Of a stretch of DNA of 51,606 bases, positions 2,711 to 46,593 are shown piece after piece. Positions within the stretch are counted from its first letter, which is position 1, and each line of letters opens with the position of its first letter. Both the position numbers and the translations under genes were made by a program. Location: contig JAPLUR010000053.1 of NCBI GenBank assembly GCA_026397505.1, forward strand, positions 1 to 51,606, in the 5' to 3' direction. Under the pieces are notes generated by a model. The model worked only from the letters and a program-made list of their open reading frames with translations, had not been told where the DNA came from and did not search any database. The stretch is from Candidatus Zixiibacteriota bacterium (lineage in GTDB: Bacteria; Zixibacteria; MSB-5A5; GN15; PGXB01).

Positions 2711-3349
2711 CTAAAAGAGTTGCCTGATACTGCCCAGCCAGTCAAACATAAGAAATTGAACTTGGCCGATAAGAAGCGATATCCGGGCCATGACCGTATA
2801 ACCGAAATGCGCCCCAAATGAAATCATGATGAACCAGATTCCGACCTGGGCGGTGACTCCCAGCGCCCCCTTATGTTCCTTGGAGAAATAGAAATATATC
2901 AAGGTGGAAATGACCCCGATAACGATCACCAGCGCCAGCAGGGTGCCGGCAAATCCCTGACGCGGGTCGAGCGAAAGCATGGTCGAGCGAACCTGCGGCA
3001 GGATAAGCCCGTGCAGTTGCGAAATAAGAAACACTCCGGCCGTATTCCCCATAACAAAGGCCAGCGAGGCGCGACTGATCCAGGACCATTTGGCAAAAAA
3101 CCTCGCAAACATCAATACGCCCAGCATGGCCGGGAAAAGAAGCCACCAGCGTCCATCATCAAACATTGGGTTGACCAATTGCTGGATAATCACCGCCTGC
3201 CAAACCAGACCGACATAATACCCGGCCGAAAGCCCCGCAAAGACATGCTCGGCCAGCTTATAGAACGGATTATCCTTGTAGAGAAAAGAGAATAGGGAAA
3301 GAACGAGGAACGCTCCAAGCCATATCTGGAGATTTTCCACCAGACTCAT
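2711..3349 (-). CDS. Integral membrane protein of unknown function (membrane operon gene 5)
   Basis: This 212-residue, strongly hydrophobic protein has about six predicted membrane segments, for example LQIWLGAFLVLSLFSFLY, WWLLFPAMLGVLMFARFF and LLALVIVIGVISTLIYFYF. I do not recognise the family. Its ATG overlaps the stop codon of the preceding gene by four bases (ATGA), which indicates translational coupling, and it is the last gene of a five-gene set of membrane proteins running from 6707 down to 2711. The stretch between membrane segments 2 and 3 contains DDGRWW. It could be the membrane platform of a complex formed with the two paralogous anchored proteins upstream, but this is only inferred from the operon. 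Confidence 0.8.
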   Translation of the reverse strand: MSLVENLQIWLGAFLVLSLFSFLYKDNPFYKLAEHVFAGLSAGYYVGLVWQAVIIQQLVNPMFDDGRWWLLFPAMLGVLMFARFFAKWSWISRASLAFVMGNTAGVFLISQLHGLILPQVRSTMLSLDPRQGFAGTLLALVIVIGVISTLIYFYFSKEHKGALGVTAQVGIWFIMISFGAHFGYTVMARISLLIGQVQFLMFDWLGSIRQLF

Positions 3350-4182
3350 TTCCTCACCCCTTTCCCGTCCTTCCGGCTGACAAAGAAACCGATATTGCCG
3401 ATTACGACCAAGAAGATTATCAGCAGATGCACCATCGACTGAGCATCCATCCCGCGAATGGCATTACCCTCGTGCTTGACCAGCAATTCATATTCGGCCG
3501 CCCCTTTCATTCCACCCAGAAGGCCGGTCAGCTGCTTGGCCTCCAAAAAGGAATACATCTTCGGCGCCATGACCGCCGTCACACCGGCCCCAACCGGAAC
3601 ACCAAACTGGGCGTTGACTATCGAAATCCAGTAATCAACGATACCGTTATCCGCCACGACATATATGAATTTTACGTCATTATAGTTTTTCACCCGATTC
3701 ATCAGGGGCAGCTCTTTCAGCGGGGTTCCGGAATTATCCGCCGGATAAATAGACTCGATCGAGTTGCCCATCCCTTTTAAGACCGCCACATAGTTGGCCT
3801 TATATCCCAGATTGACATAGTCGATCCCGTAAACCTTGTTGTACTCAGCCGCCAATTTGCGGGTCACCCGTTCGGCAATGGAGGGGCCTCCCAGCGGGAT
3901 CGTGGTCATGGTGATGATCCTCATGTTCTTTCGAAACATCTGGTTGAGCGCCGCTATCGACATCGGCTCGGTTTCTGCCAACGTTGAGGGATAATAGTCG
4001 AAAGTAAGGAAAACCTCCGAGCTGTCGGGGAGTGATTCGACCGCATCATAGAGCTGCTGGGCCTCGGGGCTGATTTCGACCGGAAACTTGATAATCACCA
4101 GCATCGGGACAATGACTGATATCGCCACCAGAAGATATATCCAGCGGCGATCCAGCCCGGCCACTCTTTCCCAGAAACCCAT
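3346..4182 (-). CDS. Membrane-anchored protein of unknown function (membrane operon gene 4)
   Basis: This protein has 278 residues from the ATG at 4182, chosen because GGGAAGAG lies just upstream; a longer frame opens at 4218. There is one N-terminal membrane helix (WIYLLVAISVIVPMLVII) and one near the C-terminus (MVHLLIIFLVVIGNIGFFV), with a roughly 200-residue domain between them that is probably outside the cytoplasm. That domain contains VFLTFDYYPSTLAETEP and a GGPSIAERVTRKL stretch. No family is recognised. The start is one base after the stop of the upstream membrane gene, and its own stop overlaps the next start, so the group is tightly coupled. The two-anchor topology suggests a scaffold or sensor part of a membrane complex. 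Confidence 0.82.
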   Translation of the reverse strand: MGFWERVAGLDRRWIYLLVAISVIVPMLVIIKFPVEISPEAQQLYDAVESLPDSSEVFLTFDYYPSTLAETEPMSIAALNQMFRKNMRIITMTTIPLGGPSIAERVTRKLAAEYNKVYGIDYVNLGYKANYVAVLKGMGNSIESIYPADNSGTPLKELPLMNRVKNYNDVKFIYVVADNGIVDYWISIVNAQFGVPVGAGVTAVMAPKMYSFLEAKQLTGLLGGMKGAAEYELLVKHEGNAIRGMDAQSMVHLLIIFLVVIGNIGFFVSRKDGKGVRK

Positions 4183-4183
4183 C

Positions 4184-4894
4184 TTAACTCTTCCCCATAT
4201 AGGTGCGCTCGATACCAAGCATGATTCGCAGCGACATCGAGGCCGCGCCCAGCGCCGCGCCGATTATAATCCCGCGCTGCACCGCCACGTTGACGCCGTT
4301 CATCACGAAAGTATTTATATAACCTGGAACATTATCGCCGAAAAGCCGCAGGAACGCCTCCCCCATCGGGATACGCCAGAGCATCACCAGCACGGCGGTC
4401 ACCAGAAGCAGTGTGGCTTCGGCGTTGCGAGCCCGAAACGCTCGATATGCCGCCGAGGCGATATAAAACGCCAGCATGGCGAACATCGTCGCCATCATCG
4501 GCGCATCAAGATAATTGAATAGCCAATCATAAATAGATCCGTTGCCGGTACCAAATAGCGGCCCCCAGCTTTCGGGCAGAATACTGTACATGACTTTCCC
4601 GACCGCAGATTTCGCCGAAACCGGCATCACGGAAGGAATCGCCATGGCAAAAATCGATATTAAAGTGGCCAGATTGAACAACCAGCCGCTTTTCCTCTGA
4701 CTTACGGTACGGGAATTCACCCTGACAATCGATACGACCCCAAGAAGAAGGGTAAAGCCGCCGACAATGGTCACCCACTGAAGAACCTCTTCTTCGATAT
4801 TCCCCAGCACCGTCCTGGCCGGATTGAAAAAGAAGCCGACCACCATAATCAGGCCGGAAAGAAATGCTACTATGACCGGAACCGTCGTTTTCAT
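4184..4894 (-). CDS. Multi-pass membrane protein of unknown function (membrane operon gene 3)
   Basis: This 236-residue protein has about six hydrophobic segments, including VPVIVAFLSGLIMVVGFFF at the N-terminus, WVTIVGGFTLLLGVVSIV, and APMMATMFAMLAFYIASAAY in the middle. No family is recognised. A conserved-looking loop, LFGTGNGSIYDWLFNYLDAP, separates two halves. The gene starts three bases after the DUF6754-like paralogue upstream and ends one base before the next gene. Such spacing across five genes argues for a single transcript and a stoichiometric membrane assembly. Nothing in the sequence points to a transporter or enzyme signature. Confidence 0.8.
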   Translation of the reverse strand: MKTTVPVIVAFLSGLIMVVGFFFNPARTVLGNIEEEVLQWVTIVGGFTLLLGVVSIVRVNSRTVSQRKSGWLFNLATLISIFAMAIPSVMPVSAKSAVGKVMYSILPESWGPLFGTGNGSIYDWLFNYLDAPMMATMFAMLAFYIASAAYRAFRARNAEATLLLVTAVLVMLWRIPMGEAFLRLFGDNVPGYINTFVMNGVNVAVQRGIIIGAALGAASMSLRIMLGIERTYMGKS

Positions 4895-4897
4895 TAT

Positions 4898-5830
4898 CTA
4901 ACCTGTTTTCAGAAGATCTTTAAATCCTTCGCCAATCCCCAGGGTCAACAGTATCACCCCGATAATAATCATAACCACCAGAATAATTTTGATGAAATCC
5001 TGCCCCTTCAATCCGCCCAGCAGAAGGGGCTCATGGCTGAGATAACTCGAGGCGGCATACAGTTCCTCTCCCATCAGGGTATAATCACAGGCCGCTACGA
5101 AAAAAGGCAACTGCTCGGGGCGGGCCGTTCCGGCAATCTGTATCGAACCGGCGGCATTGCCGGTCTCGGCCAGAAGCAACGACTCGGCAAAAAAGGCTCC
5201 CATATATATATTGGCGGCCGGACGGTCACGCATCATAATGCCATTGACCGTGGCCGTGAATGCAAATTGCTCTCCCGCGACATATTTTACCGTATCCCGA
5301 TCATAAGCATCTTTCTTCCCCATCGAGGCATATGCCTGCTCCACTACTTCCTGTCCGGCTGCCAGCACCATCGGATACCGCACCGGCACGATTAGCGGTG
5401 TCTCGTACTGAGCGGTTATTCTGGCCACCCGCCCCAGTATCGAAAGGCCGGCAATCGTCTCGATCTCGTCAATCTCCGAAATGCCTGGAATGAAGAGCAC
5501 CGGCTTTCCCATCTCGGTGGCCCGTCCGACCGCCTCCTCGATTGCGTCCAATCCCGAAATCTTGCGGACAAAGAGGCTCTTTCCTTGCCGCGCCCAATGG
5601 GTGTAAAGAAGAATCAGCGTCGTGAACACCACAGCAAAAACCAGAATCGCCGTCCGATCGACCCGGAATATCGAATCGGGGATATTCTGGGCCGATGCCG
5701 GCACGGTCAAACAGCCAGCCAGAAAAATTGTGAGGGAGAATATTCGCAATGAGGATAATCCGGGCACTCTATACACGATCCTAAGATAACCCTTTCGCGC
5801 CGGCGATGTCAACCGAGAACGAGTGCTCAT
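4898..5830 (-). CDS. DUF6754-like membrane-anchored protein, paralogue B (membrane operon gene 2)
   Basis: This 310-residue protein is a close paralogue of the gene just upstream (5844-6707). Shared blocks include GLDAIEEAVGRATEMGKPVL, LGRVARITAQYETPLIVPV, YAASSYLSHEPLLLGGLKGQ and a C-terminal membrane helix. The N-terminus has a basic segment followed by a hydrophobic stretch, ALTVPASAQ-like, that looks like a signal sequence, then a second hydrophobic segment (AILVFAVVFTTLILLYTHW). I associate this layout from memory with the uncharacterised DUF6754 family. The first 25 residues are rich in Arg and may not all be translated; an internal start is possible. The middle domain, rich in Ala and Gly with PVLFIPGISEID, is probably cytoplasmic. 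Function is unknown. Confidence 0.82.
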   Translation of the reverse strand: MSTRSRLTSPARKGYLRIVYRVPGLSSLRIFSLTIFLAGCLTVPASAQNIPDSIFRVDRTAILVFAVVFTTLILLYTHWARQGKSLFVRKISGLDAIEEAVGRATEMGKPVLFIPGISEIDEIETIAGLSILGRVARITAQYETPLIVPVRYPMVLAAGQEVVEQAYASMGKKDAYDRDTVKYVAGEQFAFTATVNGIMMRDRPAANIYMGAFFAESLLLAETGNAAGSIQIAGTARPEQLPFFVAACDYTLMGEELYAASSYLSHEPLLLGGLKGQDFIKIILVVMIIIGVILLTLGIGEGFKDLLKTG

Positions 5831-5843
5831 AAGTAATTAATCA

Positions 5844-6707
5844 TTATCCTGTCACAAATAACGACTGGAACCAGTCTCCTATGTTGAATGTCGTCAGAAT
5901 TGTCCCGACCAGAATGGCAATGACAAGGATGATCTTTATCAAATCCTGCCCCTTCAATCCGCCCAGCAGCAGCGGTTCGTGACTCAGATAGCTGGAGGCG
6001 GCATAAAGCTCCTCCCCCATCAACGTATAGTCGCAGGAGCAGATGAAAAACGGCAATTGCTCCGGCTCGGCGGTGCCGGCGATCTGAATGGAACCGGCGA
6101 TATTCCCGGTTTCGGTCAAGAGAAGCGATTCGGCATAAAAAGCCCCCATCAGAATATTGGCCGCCGGCCGCTCCCGTATCATGATACCGTTGATCGCAGC
6201 CGCCAGCGCAAACTGCTCCCCCGCTACGTACCGCACGATATCTTTATTATAGGCATCTTTCTTCCCCATTTCGATATAGGCATTTTCCACGACTTCCTGT
6301 CCCGCCGCCAGAATCAGGGGATAGTTGACCGGCACTATTAAAGGGGTATCATACTGCGCGGTTATTCGGGCAATCCGCCCCAGTATCGAAACCGCCGCCA
6401 CCGTCTGAATACTGTCAAGCTCTTCTATTCCGGGGACAAAGAGCACCGGCCGCCCCATCTCGGTCGCCCGGCCGACCGCCTCTTCAACCGCATCGAGCCC
6501 GGGAATCTTCCTTATGAAAAGCTTCCGCCCCATTCTCGCCCAGCGTGTATAGAGAACAATAACCGCCGAGAAAAAAATAACAAAGATAAGAACAGCCGTC
6601 CGCTCGGTCCGGAAAAGAGAGCCGGAAGAATTCGCTGCCAGCGCCATCGAATGCATTCCATTTATTAAAATAAATGCAATGGGAATTGCGCCTGCAAACA
6701 CTCTCAT
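5844..6707 (-). CDS. DUF6754-like membrane-anchored protein, paralogue A (membrane operon gene 1)
   Basis: This 287-residue protein is the first gene of the five-gene membrane set. A signal-like hydrophobic N-terminus (AGAIPIAFILINGMHSMALA) is followed by a second hydrophobic segment (VLIFVIFFSAVIVLYTRWA), a soluble domain of about 190 residues, and a C-terminal membrane helix (IKIILVIAILVGTILTTF). The soluble domain carries GRATEMGRPVLFVPGIEELD and EQFALAAAINGIMIRERPAA, which recur almost unchanged in the next gene, so the two arose by tandem duplication. No catalytic motif is recognised; DUF6754 is the family I recall for this shape, unverified. It begins about 40 bases after panC (which lies upstream on this strand), so it could be expressed with panC. 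Confidence 0.84.
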   Translation of the reverse strand: MRVFAGAIPIAFILINGMHSMALAANSSGSLFRTERTAVLIFVIFFSAVIVLYTRWARMGRKLFIRKIPGLDAVEEAVGRATEMGRPVLFVPGIEELDSIQTVAAVSILGRIARITAQYDTPLIVPVNYPLILAAGQEVVENAYIEMGKKDAYNKDIVRYVAGEQFALAAAINGIMIRERPAANILMGAFYAESLLLTETGNIAGSIQIAGTAEPEQLPFFICSCDYTLMGEELYAASSYLSHEPLLLGGLKGQDLIKIILVIAILVGTILTTFNIGDWFQSLFVTG

Positions 6708-35132: not shown

Positions 35133-36755
35133 TCATTTGACATACCCGGTCGGATCGGTCAGAACTCCCTTTATTGCCGATATGGCCGCCGTCGCCGGCG
35201 AGACCAGATAAACCTCTGGCCCGCCTGAATCCGCGGCCGACCCCGCCTTACGAGCCGCCGTGGAAAGACACCTTTCTCCCGGAGCCAGAATATCCTGATA
35301 ATTTCCGGGACACGGTCCGCACCCGGGATTCATCACCAGTGCACCCGCCTCCACAAATGCCCGAATTAGGCCCTTCTTGAGCGCCTCCAGGTAAATCCCC
35401 CGCGAGCCCGGGTAGATCATCATTCTGATATCGGGATGAATCCGTTTCCCCTTGATGATATCGGCGGCAATACGCAGGTCGTCAAGACGGCCGTTGGCGC
35501 AGGAGCCCAAAATTATCTGATTGAGCGGCAGCCCTTCAAGACTCACAACATCAACCACCTTGTCAGCTTTATCCGGAAGTGCCACCTGCGGCTTGATTTG
35601 ATTGATATTAAATTCGAAAGTCGCTTCGTATAAGGCATCCTTGTCGGCCAGGGCCGGTCGATAGGGCATCTTTGTTCTCCCCAAAAAATACCGCCGTGTC
35701 GTGGAGTCGAACGGACAGATCGCCGTCACCGCCCCCAGATCCATGGAAAGGTGCGAAAGGGTGAATCTTTCGGAAATCGACATCTGCGATACGATCGAAC
35801 CATAGAATTCAATCGCCGTCCCTTCAACTCGTGATGCCGTCAGATTCCGGACAATAAAAAGGATAACATCGCGGGCATATACGCCCCGCGGTACTTTTCC
35901 GTTGATGGCAATGCTGATAGTCTGCGGAACAGTCATCGATAGCCGACCCGATGACCATAGAGCCGCCATTTCGGCCATACCTATGGTCGCGGCAAAAGCG
36001 CCGATACTGCCATAGGAAGTTGTATGAATATCGGTCCCCACCGCCAGCTGCCCCGGCAGAATGTCCCCATTTTCAACAACCAGTTGATGACAGACTCCTT
36101 CGCCAACATCATAAAAATGCTTGATATTCTGTCGCTTGACAAATTCCCGTATTTCCTTATGAGCGACCGCAGTTTCGGAGCTCGCTGCCGACGACGCTTG
36201 ATCGAGCGATATAACAATCCGGTTCGGGTTCCAGACATAACTGAGACCCGATTCCCGAAATTGCCTCAAAACAAGTGAAGCCGTGTTATGGGCAAGAGCC
36301 AGATCCGGCTCCACCGTAACCGTCTCCCCGATTTCCACCTTCTCTTGCCCCGCTCTCTCGGCAATTATCTTTTGCGCGATGGTTCGTCCGCCATAATTGA
36401 ACTTCTTCCCCACCCCGCGACTTGGCCCACCAAGATTCAATTCCAGCTGCTCCAATTTCAGGAAGGCCGGTTTATCCTTAAGATTGTATTTGCGCCGCCA
36501 GTTGTAAAAAGCCGCTTTCGAAATCCCAAGTTCCAGGCCGCAACGATAATCATCGCCGAACCGTTCCCACACCTCTTGTATTTCCGCCTGAGAAAACTTG
36601 GGAAAAGAATTCCGGGCAATATTTTTTTTGCGCCGCCAGTAGGCGACCAACTGAGCCGAGACCCCCCCCAGCCGCTCGGCTATCTTCTCGTCGGTCTTGT
36701 ATAATCTCTGAAGCTGGATCAGCTCCGCTTTGGTCGGGATCTTCCCTCGGGGCAT
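35133..36755 (-). CDS. Tandem-HTH plus aconitase/LeuC-like fusion protein with degenerate active site
   Basis: This 540-residue protein has two helix-turn-helix-like units at the N-terminus (about residues 18-45, with DEKIAERLGGVSAQLVAYW, and 68-92, with LGISKAAFYNWRRKY). The rest, from about residue 110, is an aconitase/LeuC-like large-subunit fold. The three cluster cysteines are kept: C419 in GSCANGR, C479 and C482 in NPGCGPCPG. Several catalytic positions are not: DQ (185-186) where aconitases have DH, GTDIHT (240-245) for GTDSHT, H335 and D339 where Asn and Glu are expected, and residue 507 is Ala where the second substrate Arg should be. No leuD-like small subunit lies nearby. It overlaps the HIT gene by 37 bases. 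Function as an Fe-S sensor and DNA-binding regulator is inferred. Confidence 0.85.
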   Translation of the reverse strand: MPRGKIPTKAELIQLQRLYKTDEKIAERLGGVSAQLVAYWRRKKNIARNSFPKFSQAEIQEVWERFGDDYRCGLELGISKAAFYNWRRKYNLKDKPAFLKLEQLELNLGGPSRGVGKKFNYGGRTIAQKIIAERAGQEKVEIGETVTVEPDLALAHNTASLVLRQFRESGLSYVWNPNRIVISLDQASSAASSETAVAHKEIREFVKRQNIKHFYDVGEGVCHQLVVENGDILPGQLAVGTDIHTTSYGSIGAFAATIGMAEMAALWSSGRLSMTVPQTISIAINGKVPRGVYARDVILFIVRNLTASRVEGTAIEFYGSIVSQMSISERFTLSHLSMDLGAVTAICPFDSTTRRYFLGRTKMPYRPALADKDALYEATFEFNINQIKPQVALPDKADKVVDVVSLEGLPLNQIILGSCANGRLDDLRIAADIIKGKRIHPDIRMMIYPGSRGIYLEALKKGLIRAFVEAGALVMNPGCGPCPGNYQDILAPGERCLSTAARKAGSAADSGGPEVYLVSPATAAISAIKGVLTDPTGYVK

Positions 36756-44862: not shown

Positions 44863-46593
44863 CTAGCGGGTCTCTGTGATCAGCCGCACGATCGAAGACA
44901 ATGATTCCCGGCTAATTTGATTCAACCCGAACGCTATTTTGGGTCGTAGCTCGGAGGGCAGCGATTCTATATCCACACCGGGAAGAAGAACGGTAATAAC
45001 TCGCTTCTTCTGCAATAACGACAGATCAATCTCCCACCTCAGGTAGTCCCTCGACTTTCCTCCCCCGCCGATGAGATAAAGCACGAAGCGAGAAGAAGAA
45101 ATCCCAGACGCAGGAACCCCCTGCAGCATTATTGCGGTGCTCGATTTCATGTTTATGTCAAAGACCTTTAGTCCCTCTTCAGCGAGTATCCGCCGCACTA
45201 GCTCGGCCGAATCCATATCCCCCCTATCATAACGGAGAAACACATCGTATATTACAGTGGTATCGGATGTATCCTCCGGTACCCATAAACGCTCTTTTTG
45301 CAGAAAATCGATTGTCGCACTCCTGCGAGCATGGTCAGTTAGCCAACTCAAGCCATACTCTGTCTTCAGAAGACCAACTAGTTCATGGTGAACCTTGAGA
45401 AGGCCCGCGGCCTCCTTAAACGCAGGATCGTCAATACTGTCAACTTCAGGGATTCCTATGCTCAGCCATTGAGCCACCTTCTGACATATTTCGTCAGAGC
45501 GGGCAAGTGCCACATACATCGCCGGCCATCGCTGCTGCATACTTCTGGAAACAGCAAAGAAAGAAACGGGCATTTCCCTGAAAGCTTCGTCCCCGGCAGT
45601 GGCCCTGAATATAGCTCTATCGACCAGCAGGTTATTTACAAACCGGACTGCAGTACGTGGGTTACTACCTGATGCAACGTCTATGATTGGCACAAGCTCC
45701 TTGAAACTCTTGCGGTCGCCCGCGGTCAAACGAGACATCACGCTGTCCCAGAAAGTTGACATTCGATTCCTATGGGGAGGGATATGGAATGGCAACTGAA
45801 CAATCTTATCGAGGTACGCATAGCCCTCGAATCCGGAAATACCATATTCCTTTTCGTAGCGGTGTTGCAGGTACCCCTCAATGACCCTCCTTGCAACGCC
45901 GAGAAAGAAAATGAAACCCGGTTGAGCCAAAACCAATTTGATGCTCTCAAGTAATTTGATAGCCCTGTCTGGGAAACAGCGATCGAGGTCGTCGATCAAA
46001 ACGACGACTCTCGTCTTGCTTGGCACGCGAGCGCGCGACAGTTGCTGGAAAGCATCGAAGAAAATGCTCCGATCGAGAAGTGGGTCTGGTGCGATGGCCT
46101 CCGACCTTTCAATCATATCCTTTGCGACAAATGACGCTTCGATTTCGGCGAAACCGGGGATCTTAACTTTCGATTTTGCCGAAAATCCGTACGCGACCGC
46201 CCGAAGACTACGAAGGAAGGTCCTACCGCCGTCTTCCAGTGTGGCAAGGAAGTCCTTGTTCCGCTCGATCTCCCGCACGATTGTGGCAACTAAGGGAACA
46301 ATGGGTTGTTCATCACTCTCAAACCGCCAGGCGTTGAACCAAACCGTGATGACGTTCTTCCTCGTGGCGAGGTATTCCTCCACAAGCCGCATCAAACTTG
46401 TCTTTCCCGTCCCCCATTCCCCGAAAACGCCAACAGTGAAGGGTCCAGGGGTCTGTATTGCCACTTCCGCCAGTACACGAGAGTACATTTTAAAGCCGAG
46501 ACCATCGGCAGTGGTCGGTGTGCCTTCGCCTATCGGCTGGTCGCTAAGAAGTGCAAGGGCTTCTACTGCGTCGTCGGATGCTTTCTTGGCCAT
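44863..46593 (-). CDS. KAP-family P-loop NTPase fused to a C-terminal TIR-like domain
   Basis: This 576-residue protein has a good start (AGGTG ahead of the ATG at 46593). The N-terminal half is a KAP NTPase: Walker A GEWGTGKT (residues 58-65), the family's WFNAWRFESD (85-94), and Walker B VVVLIDDLDRC (196-206). No membrane segment is inserted, unlike many KAP proteins. The last 130 residues read as a TIR domain: YDVFLRYDRGD (449-459), GLKVF, SSSRFVLYLI, then SRDYLRWEIDL (514-524) with a Glu (521) in the place of the catalytic acid of NADase-type TIRs, and a VITVLLPG strand. KAP proteins use ATP to assemble; a TIR would be the effector. A role in phage defence by NAD consumption is inferred, not shown. 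Confidence 0.85.
   Translation of the reverse strand: MAKKASDDAVEALALLSDQPIGEGTPTTADGLGFKMYSRVLAEVAIQTPGPFTVGVFGEWGTGKTSLMRLVEEYLATRKNVITVWFNAWRFESDEQPIVPLVATIVREIERNKDFLATLEDGGRTFLRSLRAVAYGFSAKSKVKIPGFAEIEASFVAKDMIERSEAIAPDPLLDRSIFFDAFQQLSRARVPSKTRVVVLIDDLDRCFPDRAIKLLESIKLVLAQPGFIFFLGVARRVIEGYLQHRYEKEYGISGFEGYAYLDKIVQLPFHIPPHRNRMSTFWDSVMSRLTAGDRKSFKELVPIIDVASGSNPRTAVRFVNNLLVDRAIFRATAGDEAFREMPVSFFAVSRSMQQRWPAMYVALARSDEICQKVAQWLSIGIPEVDSIDDPAFKEAAGLLKVHHELVGLLKTEYGLSWLTDHARRSATIDFLQKERLWVPEDTSDTTVIYDVFLRYDRGDMDSAELVRRILAEEGLKVFDINMKSSTAIMLQGVPASGISSSRFVLYLIGGGGKSRDYLRWEIDLSLLQKKRVITVLLPGVDIESLPSELRPKIAFGLNQISRESLSSIVRLITETR

Follow-up and report, generated by a model that had tools for sequence, protein, structure and literature searches.

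A conserved four-gene membrane cassette built on DUF6754 proteins, and its predicted ATPase-like partner, in Zixibacteria and other bacterial phyla

Results

The genes of the cassette in the window

The stretch of DNA analyzed here, referred to as the window, comprises positions 1 to 51,606 of contig JAPLUR010000053.1 of a Candidatus Zixiibacteriota bacterium (assembly GCA_026397505.1), and carries on its minus strand a run of five membrane-protein genes, A1-A2-B-C-D, which is one copy of a widespread cassette. The gene for A1 (5844-6707, 287 residues) and that for A2 (4898-5830, 310 residues) both encode DUF6754 proteins, matching PF20539 with 390 and 392 bits, respectively, against a cut-off of 27 bits; the profile is covered over nearly its full length, as in the other A copies of this genome, and the two proteins are 67% identical. 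They are followed by B (4184-4894, 236 residues, about six membrane segments), C (3346-4182, 278 residues) and D (2711-3349, 212 residues, six to seven membrane segments), all on the minus strand. The start of C is the ATG at 4182, the longest open reading frame beginning at a TTG at 4218. An earlier note on this DNA had described a five-gene run with junctions of 13, 3, 1 and -4 bases, headed by two close DUF6754 paralogues and continued by three other membrane proteins, and on each of these points the sequence and the hydropathy of B, C and D agree with it, the junctions exactly.

B, C and D lie outside known families, since none of them reaches the cut-off of any Pfam or NCBIfam family; the similarity of B to the stage III sporulation AC/AD family, at 13.5 bits, falls below the Pfam cut-off of 24, and a search of viral_contigs with B returned no relative. 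Each of the three has its own conserved positions, namely a YRAFRAR loop and a C-terminal LGIERxYLG in B, the residues H252 and N263 of C, which are invariant and belong to its second anchor, and SFLYKDNPxYKxAE and FGxxFGYTVMxR in D. The run is flanked closely and on the same strand by panC (gap of 39 bases) and a nucleotidyltransferase gene (gap of 67 bases). Scans for promoters and terminators gave weak matches only, 13 and 13 being found where 7.0 and 8.0 were expected.

Copies of the cassette in the same genome

The genome of the window holds six DUF6754 copies, two in the window, three on contig C32 and one on contig C119, and profile searches of the whole genome found exactly five B, five C and five D genes, all within clusters and with no strays. 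Contig C32 carries three tandem ABCD cassettes and contig C119 a single one, which brings the total to five cassettes and 21 genes. The unit is consequently the four-gene cassette A-B-C-D, and the window form carries a local, lineage-specific duplication of A: the arrangement A-A-B-C-D is also found in the related locus L040, and L043 has a single A. The idea of a complex of five components, put forward in the earlier note, thus survives as regards a conserved operon-like unit and fails as regards the number of its parts, because A is doubled only in some lineages. The spacing of the genes, from which that note argued for a stoichiometric complex, would by itself establish neither a stoichiometry nor a physical association. 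That interpretation also overlooked the four further cassettes of the same genome and the cytosolic partners M, X and E described below.

When the window cassette and the three cassettes of C32 were set against the L040 cassette and the tandem array found in L039, the best match of every gene (16 of 16, from four modules of four genes) was the gene of the module in the same position in another genome, so that each subunit apparently stays with its own cassette, which is what one would expect if the complexes are paralogous. The module of C119 had no counterpart among those compared, and its best matches were mixed.

Conservation of the cassette across phyla

Named bacterial genomes were scanned with an alignment of A, which yielded at least 584 stretches, 577 of them encoding a relative, and the best 80 of the 577 were kept; these loci were picked by similarity to A and cannot reveal B, C or D without A. 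Among the record titles, Zixibacteria are the most frequent, followed by Cloacimonadota, WOR-3/Stahlbacteria, Latescibacterota, Gemmatimonadota and Eisenbacteria, with Coatesbacteria, Edwardsbacteria, Fermentibacteria, Riflebacteria, a planctomycete and others also represented, these names being mostly labels of metagenome-assembled genomes, some of which may be wrong. In the sample used for counting, which consists of the window and loci L036-L123, 110 of the 123 A genes head a complete ABCD. The remaining 13 comprise nine cut by the end of a contig or locus, two in loci with runs of N and two extra A genes (L095 and L105) that stand beside full cassettes. The median gaps in this sample are 12 bases between A and B, 1 between B and C and -1 between C and D.

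This gene-neighborhood survey, of the kind that had been proposed to check the operon, finds the order A-B-C-D recurring in many phyla, so that chance is no issue. The panC and nucleotidyltransferase genes, close by and on the same strand, would be what speaks for a chance co-transcription of unrelated membrane proteins within a housekeeping run, an explanation that we find hardly credible and that is already contradicted by the ABCD order of 110 of 123 A genes, while the flanking housekeeping genes vary between groups. A conserved tie to panC, the nucleotidyltransferase gene, the S-adenosylmethionine synthetase gene and their neighbors was also considered and rejected, as these genes recur only in the closest loci.

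DUF6754 is present in all 132 genomes of the phylum of the window (Zixibacteria), including genomes that are only 52-70% complete, and in none of 14 control genomes. A phylum in which the cassette is patchy, that of the Planctomycetaceae-labelled genome G137, allows D to be seen without A, and 199 genomes were drawn evenly from it. A occurs in 50 of these, D in 50 and X, the candidate partner described below, in 48. A and D are found together in 48 genomes, A alone in two, D alone in two and neither in 147; the corresponding figures for A and X are 45, five, three and 146. Separation of the genes in most genomes, which the earlier note had named as the outcome that would speak against it, is hence the opposite of what is seen. 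By a count made by eye, A and D lie at most 5 kb apart in 41 of the 48 genomes of this phylum that hold both; in G175, G238, G256, G288 and G345 the two are either widely separated or carried by different large contigs, and in G296 and G311 they are carried by different small ones. Co-occurrence of A and D that outlasts the loss of their linkage is stronger evidence of a joint function than linkage alone.

In a few loci foreign genes interrupt the cassette: a 115-residue protein in L059 (11562-11909), a LiaF-like protein and others in L060 (11652-12850), and several genes, including one for a NYN-domain protein, in the Caldithrix-labelled L094 (10823-16364).

Topology and predicted structure

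In family-averaged hydropathy, A shows a signal-peptide-like segment ahead of two anchors and C a soluble domain held between two anchors, and the multi-pass proteins B and D show six and six to seven segments, respectively. The two-anchor plan attributed to A in the earlier note is right once the signal-peptide-like segment is left uncounted. Charge bias would place the domain between the anchors of A, as in A1, in the cytoplasm, as the second hydrophobic segment is followed by 4.5 Lys/Arg, and that of C outside, in the periplasm (3.3 Lys/Arg before the first anchor and 4.4 after the second). The model of A2 has a mean predicted local distance difference test score (pLDDT) of 84.8 and displays a Rossmann-like domain at about residues 91-266, between two anchor helices, and that of C, also Rossmann-like, has a pLDDT of 94.7. 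The closest entry to the A2 domain in VIA-align is the Sir2 protein 1s7g_D (Z 12.2, root mean square deviation 3.3 over 139 residues), with RCK/TrkA entries (Z about 9.3-9.6) and carbon monoxide dehydrogenase (CODH) epsilon entries (Z near 9) following; for C the fold comparison gives 1kjn_A and the CODH epsilon subunit 3cf4_G, with Z 9.7. At 6-14% identity these matches of A and C indicate a similarity of fold only, and Foldseek found no convincing match for either model beyond generic Rossmann folds. Searches of PDB sequences returned for A only the fibronectin-III domains of its long relatives, which carry an outer domain of this type, none for C and none significant for X. A homology of the A and C domains, suggested by a resemblance around LxGxxxxAA seen by eye, received no support from profiles and was dropped.

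The likeness of the A domain to NAD-binding Sir2 and to RCK/TrkA gating domains, together with the several paralogous cassettes per genome, may be read as the mark of a sensor or signaling complex, in which the domains of A and C, one on either side, would recognize a nucleotide or metabolite and pass the signal across the membrane. We regard this as unlikely, given that the Rossmann-like fold is very common, that no kinase, regulator or chemotaxis gene was recognized as a conserved neighbor, and that a protein found in 132 of 132 genomes is more readily explained by a core function.

Candidate cytosolic partners M, X and E

Clustering of the neighbors of the cassettes revealed three recurrent families, X of about 375 residues, M of about 600 and E of about 120. 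According to profiles, the order E-M-X-A-B-C-D is found in ten loci (L064, L066, L067, L068, L074, L082, L086, L109, L110 and L122) and ABCD-E-M-X-ABCD in two (L072 and L073), and the same seven-gene order recurs in L141, from the planctomycete phylum of G137. M matches the MutL family PF13941 over its full length with 425 bits, the copy in the genome of the window reaching 430, against a cut-off of 27. This copy is 62-80% identical to 13 others across phyla, and the motifs DCGSTTTK, DIGGATTD and SGGxLSHAP, which we take to be the phosphate and adenosine motifs of ASKHA proteins, are conserved in all 14 sequences. M is thus a predicted ATPase, MutL/GlmL-like and of the ASKHA type. X shows 49-75% identity, against mostly 33-46% for B, C and D taken from different cassettes, as judged from first small alignments, and one end of X is KOW-like. 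It was detected in 123 of the 132 genomes of the phylum (77 of the 78 of high quality) and, outside these, in 19 of 20 genomes in which the locus sampled had no X. Two proteins of 931 and 968 residues, L126:5563-8358 (plus strand) and L127:8957-11863 (minus strand), fuse an M-like N-terminal part to an X-like C-terminal part, and both genomes also hold a separate X. In G256, of the planctomycete phylum, the set is split, with M-X-A at one of the loci L139 and L140 and B-C-D at the other, an arrangement that suggests A as the subunit on which docking would occur.

X shows weak barrel-sandwich matches to RnfC_N and NQRA_N, at 16.0 and 14.7 bits, and these might suggest that ABCD and X form a complex similar to Rnf and Nqr, which would couple electron transfer to ion translocation, with X as the cytosolic entry and B and D as the ion channel. 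The compact multi-pass nature of B and D, and the invariant His and Asn in an anchor helix of C, would suit such an arrangement. Still, the matches of X fall below the Pfam cut-offs of 25.6 and 25 bits, no cofactor motif of the CxxC or paired-His type is found at the invariant positions of these five proteins (a single Cys is invariant in A), and the conserved partner is ATPase-like rather than a redox enzyme, so that we consider an electron-transfer complex quite improbable.

The rival to be taken most seriously has M and X reactivating a cofactor enzyme, as is thought for GlmL-type and other ASKHA proteins, ABCD being a separate membrane system that only shares operons with the pair. It would account for the strong MutL/GlmL match of M, and also for the situation in the genome of the window, in which M and X lie together on contig C61, away from every ABCD cassette, and are followed by genes that by inspection are of the TolQ, TolR, TonB/TolA, TolB and Pal types. 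On the other hand, M is below the curated GlmL cut-offs (229.5 bits for L042:10999-12852 against an NCBIfam equivalog cut-off of 475, and 168.9 against 204), and no mutase was recognized in the clusters of gene neighbors. In the phylum of patchy occurrence X tends to be present along with A and D, and in G256 the group M-X-A is still intact although B-C-D lie elsewhere. An activase pair is in our view rather unlikely.

Between M and X in the genome of the window lies a gene for a 272-residue signal-anchored protein with no Pfam family (L125:7771-8589, plus strand), and L042, L087 and L116 encode proteins like it, which form one cluster of neighbors.

Genes near the cassettes and elsewhere in the window

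Homologues of ExbB, with ExbD homologues beside them, were found in the fetched stretch of 8 of 106 loci, from about four lineages. In the WOR-3/Stahlbacteria-labelled loci L084, L075, L076 and L080, D is followed by conserved small soluble proteins, some of which look by eye DUF4388-like or roadblock-like, and then by ExbB, two ExbD and a TonB-like gene. In L068, L082, L110 and similar loci a gene resembling TonB-dependent receptors comes after D, as does in some of them a lipoate-ligase-like gene, near glycine-cleavage-like genes, all of these names being given by eye.

Elsewhere in the window, the gene at 44863-46593 (minus strand) encodes a P-loop NTPase of the KAP family (127 bits) with a C-terminal TIR-like region that is just below cut-off (TIR_2 25.9 against 28 bits, ThsB_TIR 20.7 against 21.2), and is a possible defense gene. 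The gene at 35133-36755 (minus strand) encodes an aconitase-family protein, ahead of which stand about 100 residues that match helix-turn-helix models weakly.

Discussion

The fixed gene order, the touching or overlapping genes, the near-perfect co-occurrence and the divergence of the cassette as a whole unit constitute the sequence support for one complex, and A, B, C and D very probably associate physically. That this complex works together with M and X is likely, it may well be driven by ATP, and a role in the envelope is put forward more tentatively. Taking these elements jointly, we lean towards an ATP-coupled inner-membrane ABCD complex that would work with M, X and E and for which a core role in the envelope is the leading candidate.

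In such a complex A to D would be four obligate subunits. B and D may form a multi-pass core, on which A would place its Rossmann-like domain in the cytoplasm, the long paralogues adding a fibronectin-III-like domain outside, and the periplasmic side would receive a further domain of this type from C. M, X and the small protein E would make up a cytosolic module that docks on the cytoplasmic domain of A, with X as the adaptor, and we may hypothesize that binding or hydrolysis of ATP by M alters the membrane complex so that it acts at the periplasmic face through C and the outer part of A. The job could be the assembly, export or energizing of an envelope component, and paralogous cassettes could serve different clients. 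If so, E-M-X-A-B-C-D would represent a kind of transmembrane machine not described so far, in which an ATPase of the actin-fold type (ASKHA) acts through X on a four-subunit inner-membrane complex with Rossmann-like domains on both faces, with a core envelope role in Zixibacteria and many mostly uncultured phyla and several paralogous cassettes per cell; we give this full formulation about an even chance.

Several observations weigh against the ATP-coupled complex proposed here. The position of M and X on C61, away from all cassettes, is one of them, and E was not found within the 16 kb around these two genes. The same genome has five cassettes and one X, so that the M-X pair would have to serve several cassettes or else lack specificity. 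The search for X gave none in nine of the 132 phylum genomes, among them a single high-quality one, nor in G151, even though its locus carries ABCD, and five genomes of the G137 phylum have A without X. The Fisher tests for co-occurrence of A with D and of A with X (p < 1e-34) ignore shared ancestry. The folds of A and C are too common to indicate a function, and comparison of A and C by hhalign gave a probability of homology of 4.8% over the full length and 0.2% for the domains only, a shared common fold being possible. As for the envelope, the clusters of neighbors contain, beyond E, M and X, no conserved gene that would name a substrate, and the nearby ExbB and ExbD genes, which fit an envelope role, are suggestive and may be there by chance.

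A cassette accompanied by an ATPase-like partner conserved at 62-80% identity, whose A subunit is present in all 132 genomes of the phylum, should do something basic. The set also lends itself to experiment, as it would consist of soluble M and X, A as the docking candidate and a membrane unit whose four genes are suited to joint expression.

A literature search, which left most subscription journals uncovered and is for that reason weak evidence, found nothing describing the cassette, DUF6754 or the MutL-like partner. With regard to known families, the A copies belong to PF20539, which is defined only as a domain of unknown function, and B, C and D are outside Pfam. M shares with the MutL/GlmL family a full-length PF13941 match and ASKHA-like phosphate motifs, and differs from it in being below the GlmL cut-offs, about 130 residues longer at the C-terminus and genomically tied to a membrane cassette. 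X is weakly similar to the N-terminal barrel-sandwich domain of RnfC and NqrA, below cut-off and without cofactor motifs, and has a very conserved central part of its own. The general fold of Sir2, CODH epsilon and RCK proteins is found again in A, with Z values reaching 12.2, and in C, where they reach 9.7. The TolQ/ExbB-TolR/ExbD systems are alike in their envelope location, and ExbB is near the cassette in the 8 of 106 loci mentioned; however, no subunit is shared, ABCD has its own families, and its partner is ATPase-like instead of the system being proton-driven. Matching no known system and having a function that is here only proposed, the cassette is, as judged from its sequences, new in composition.

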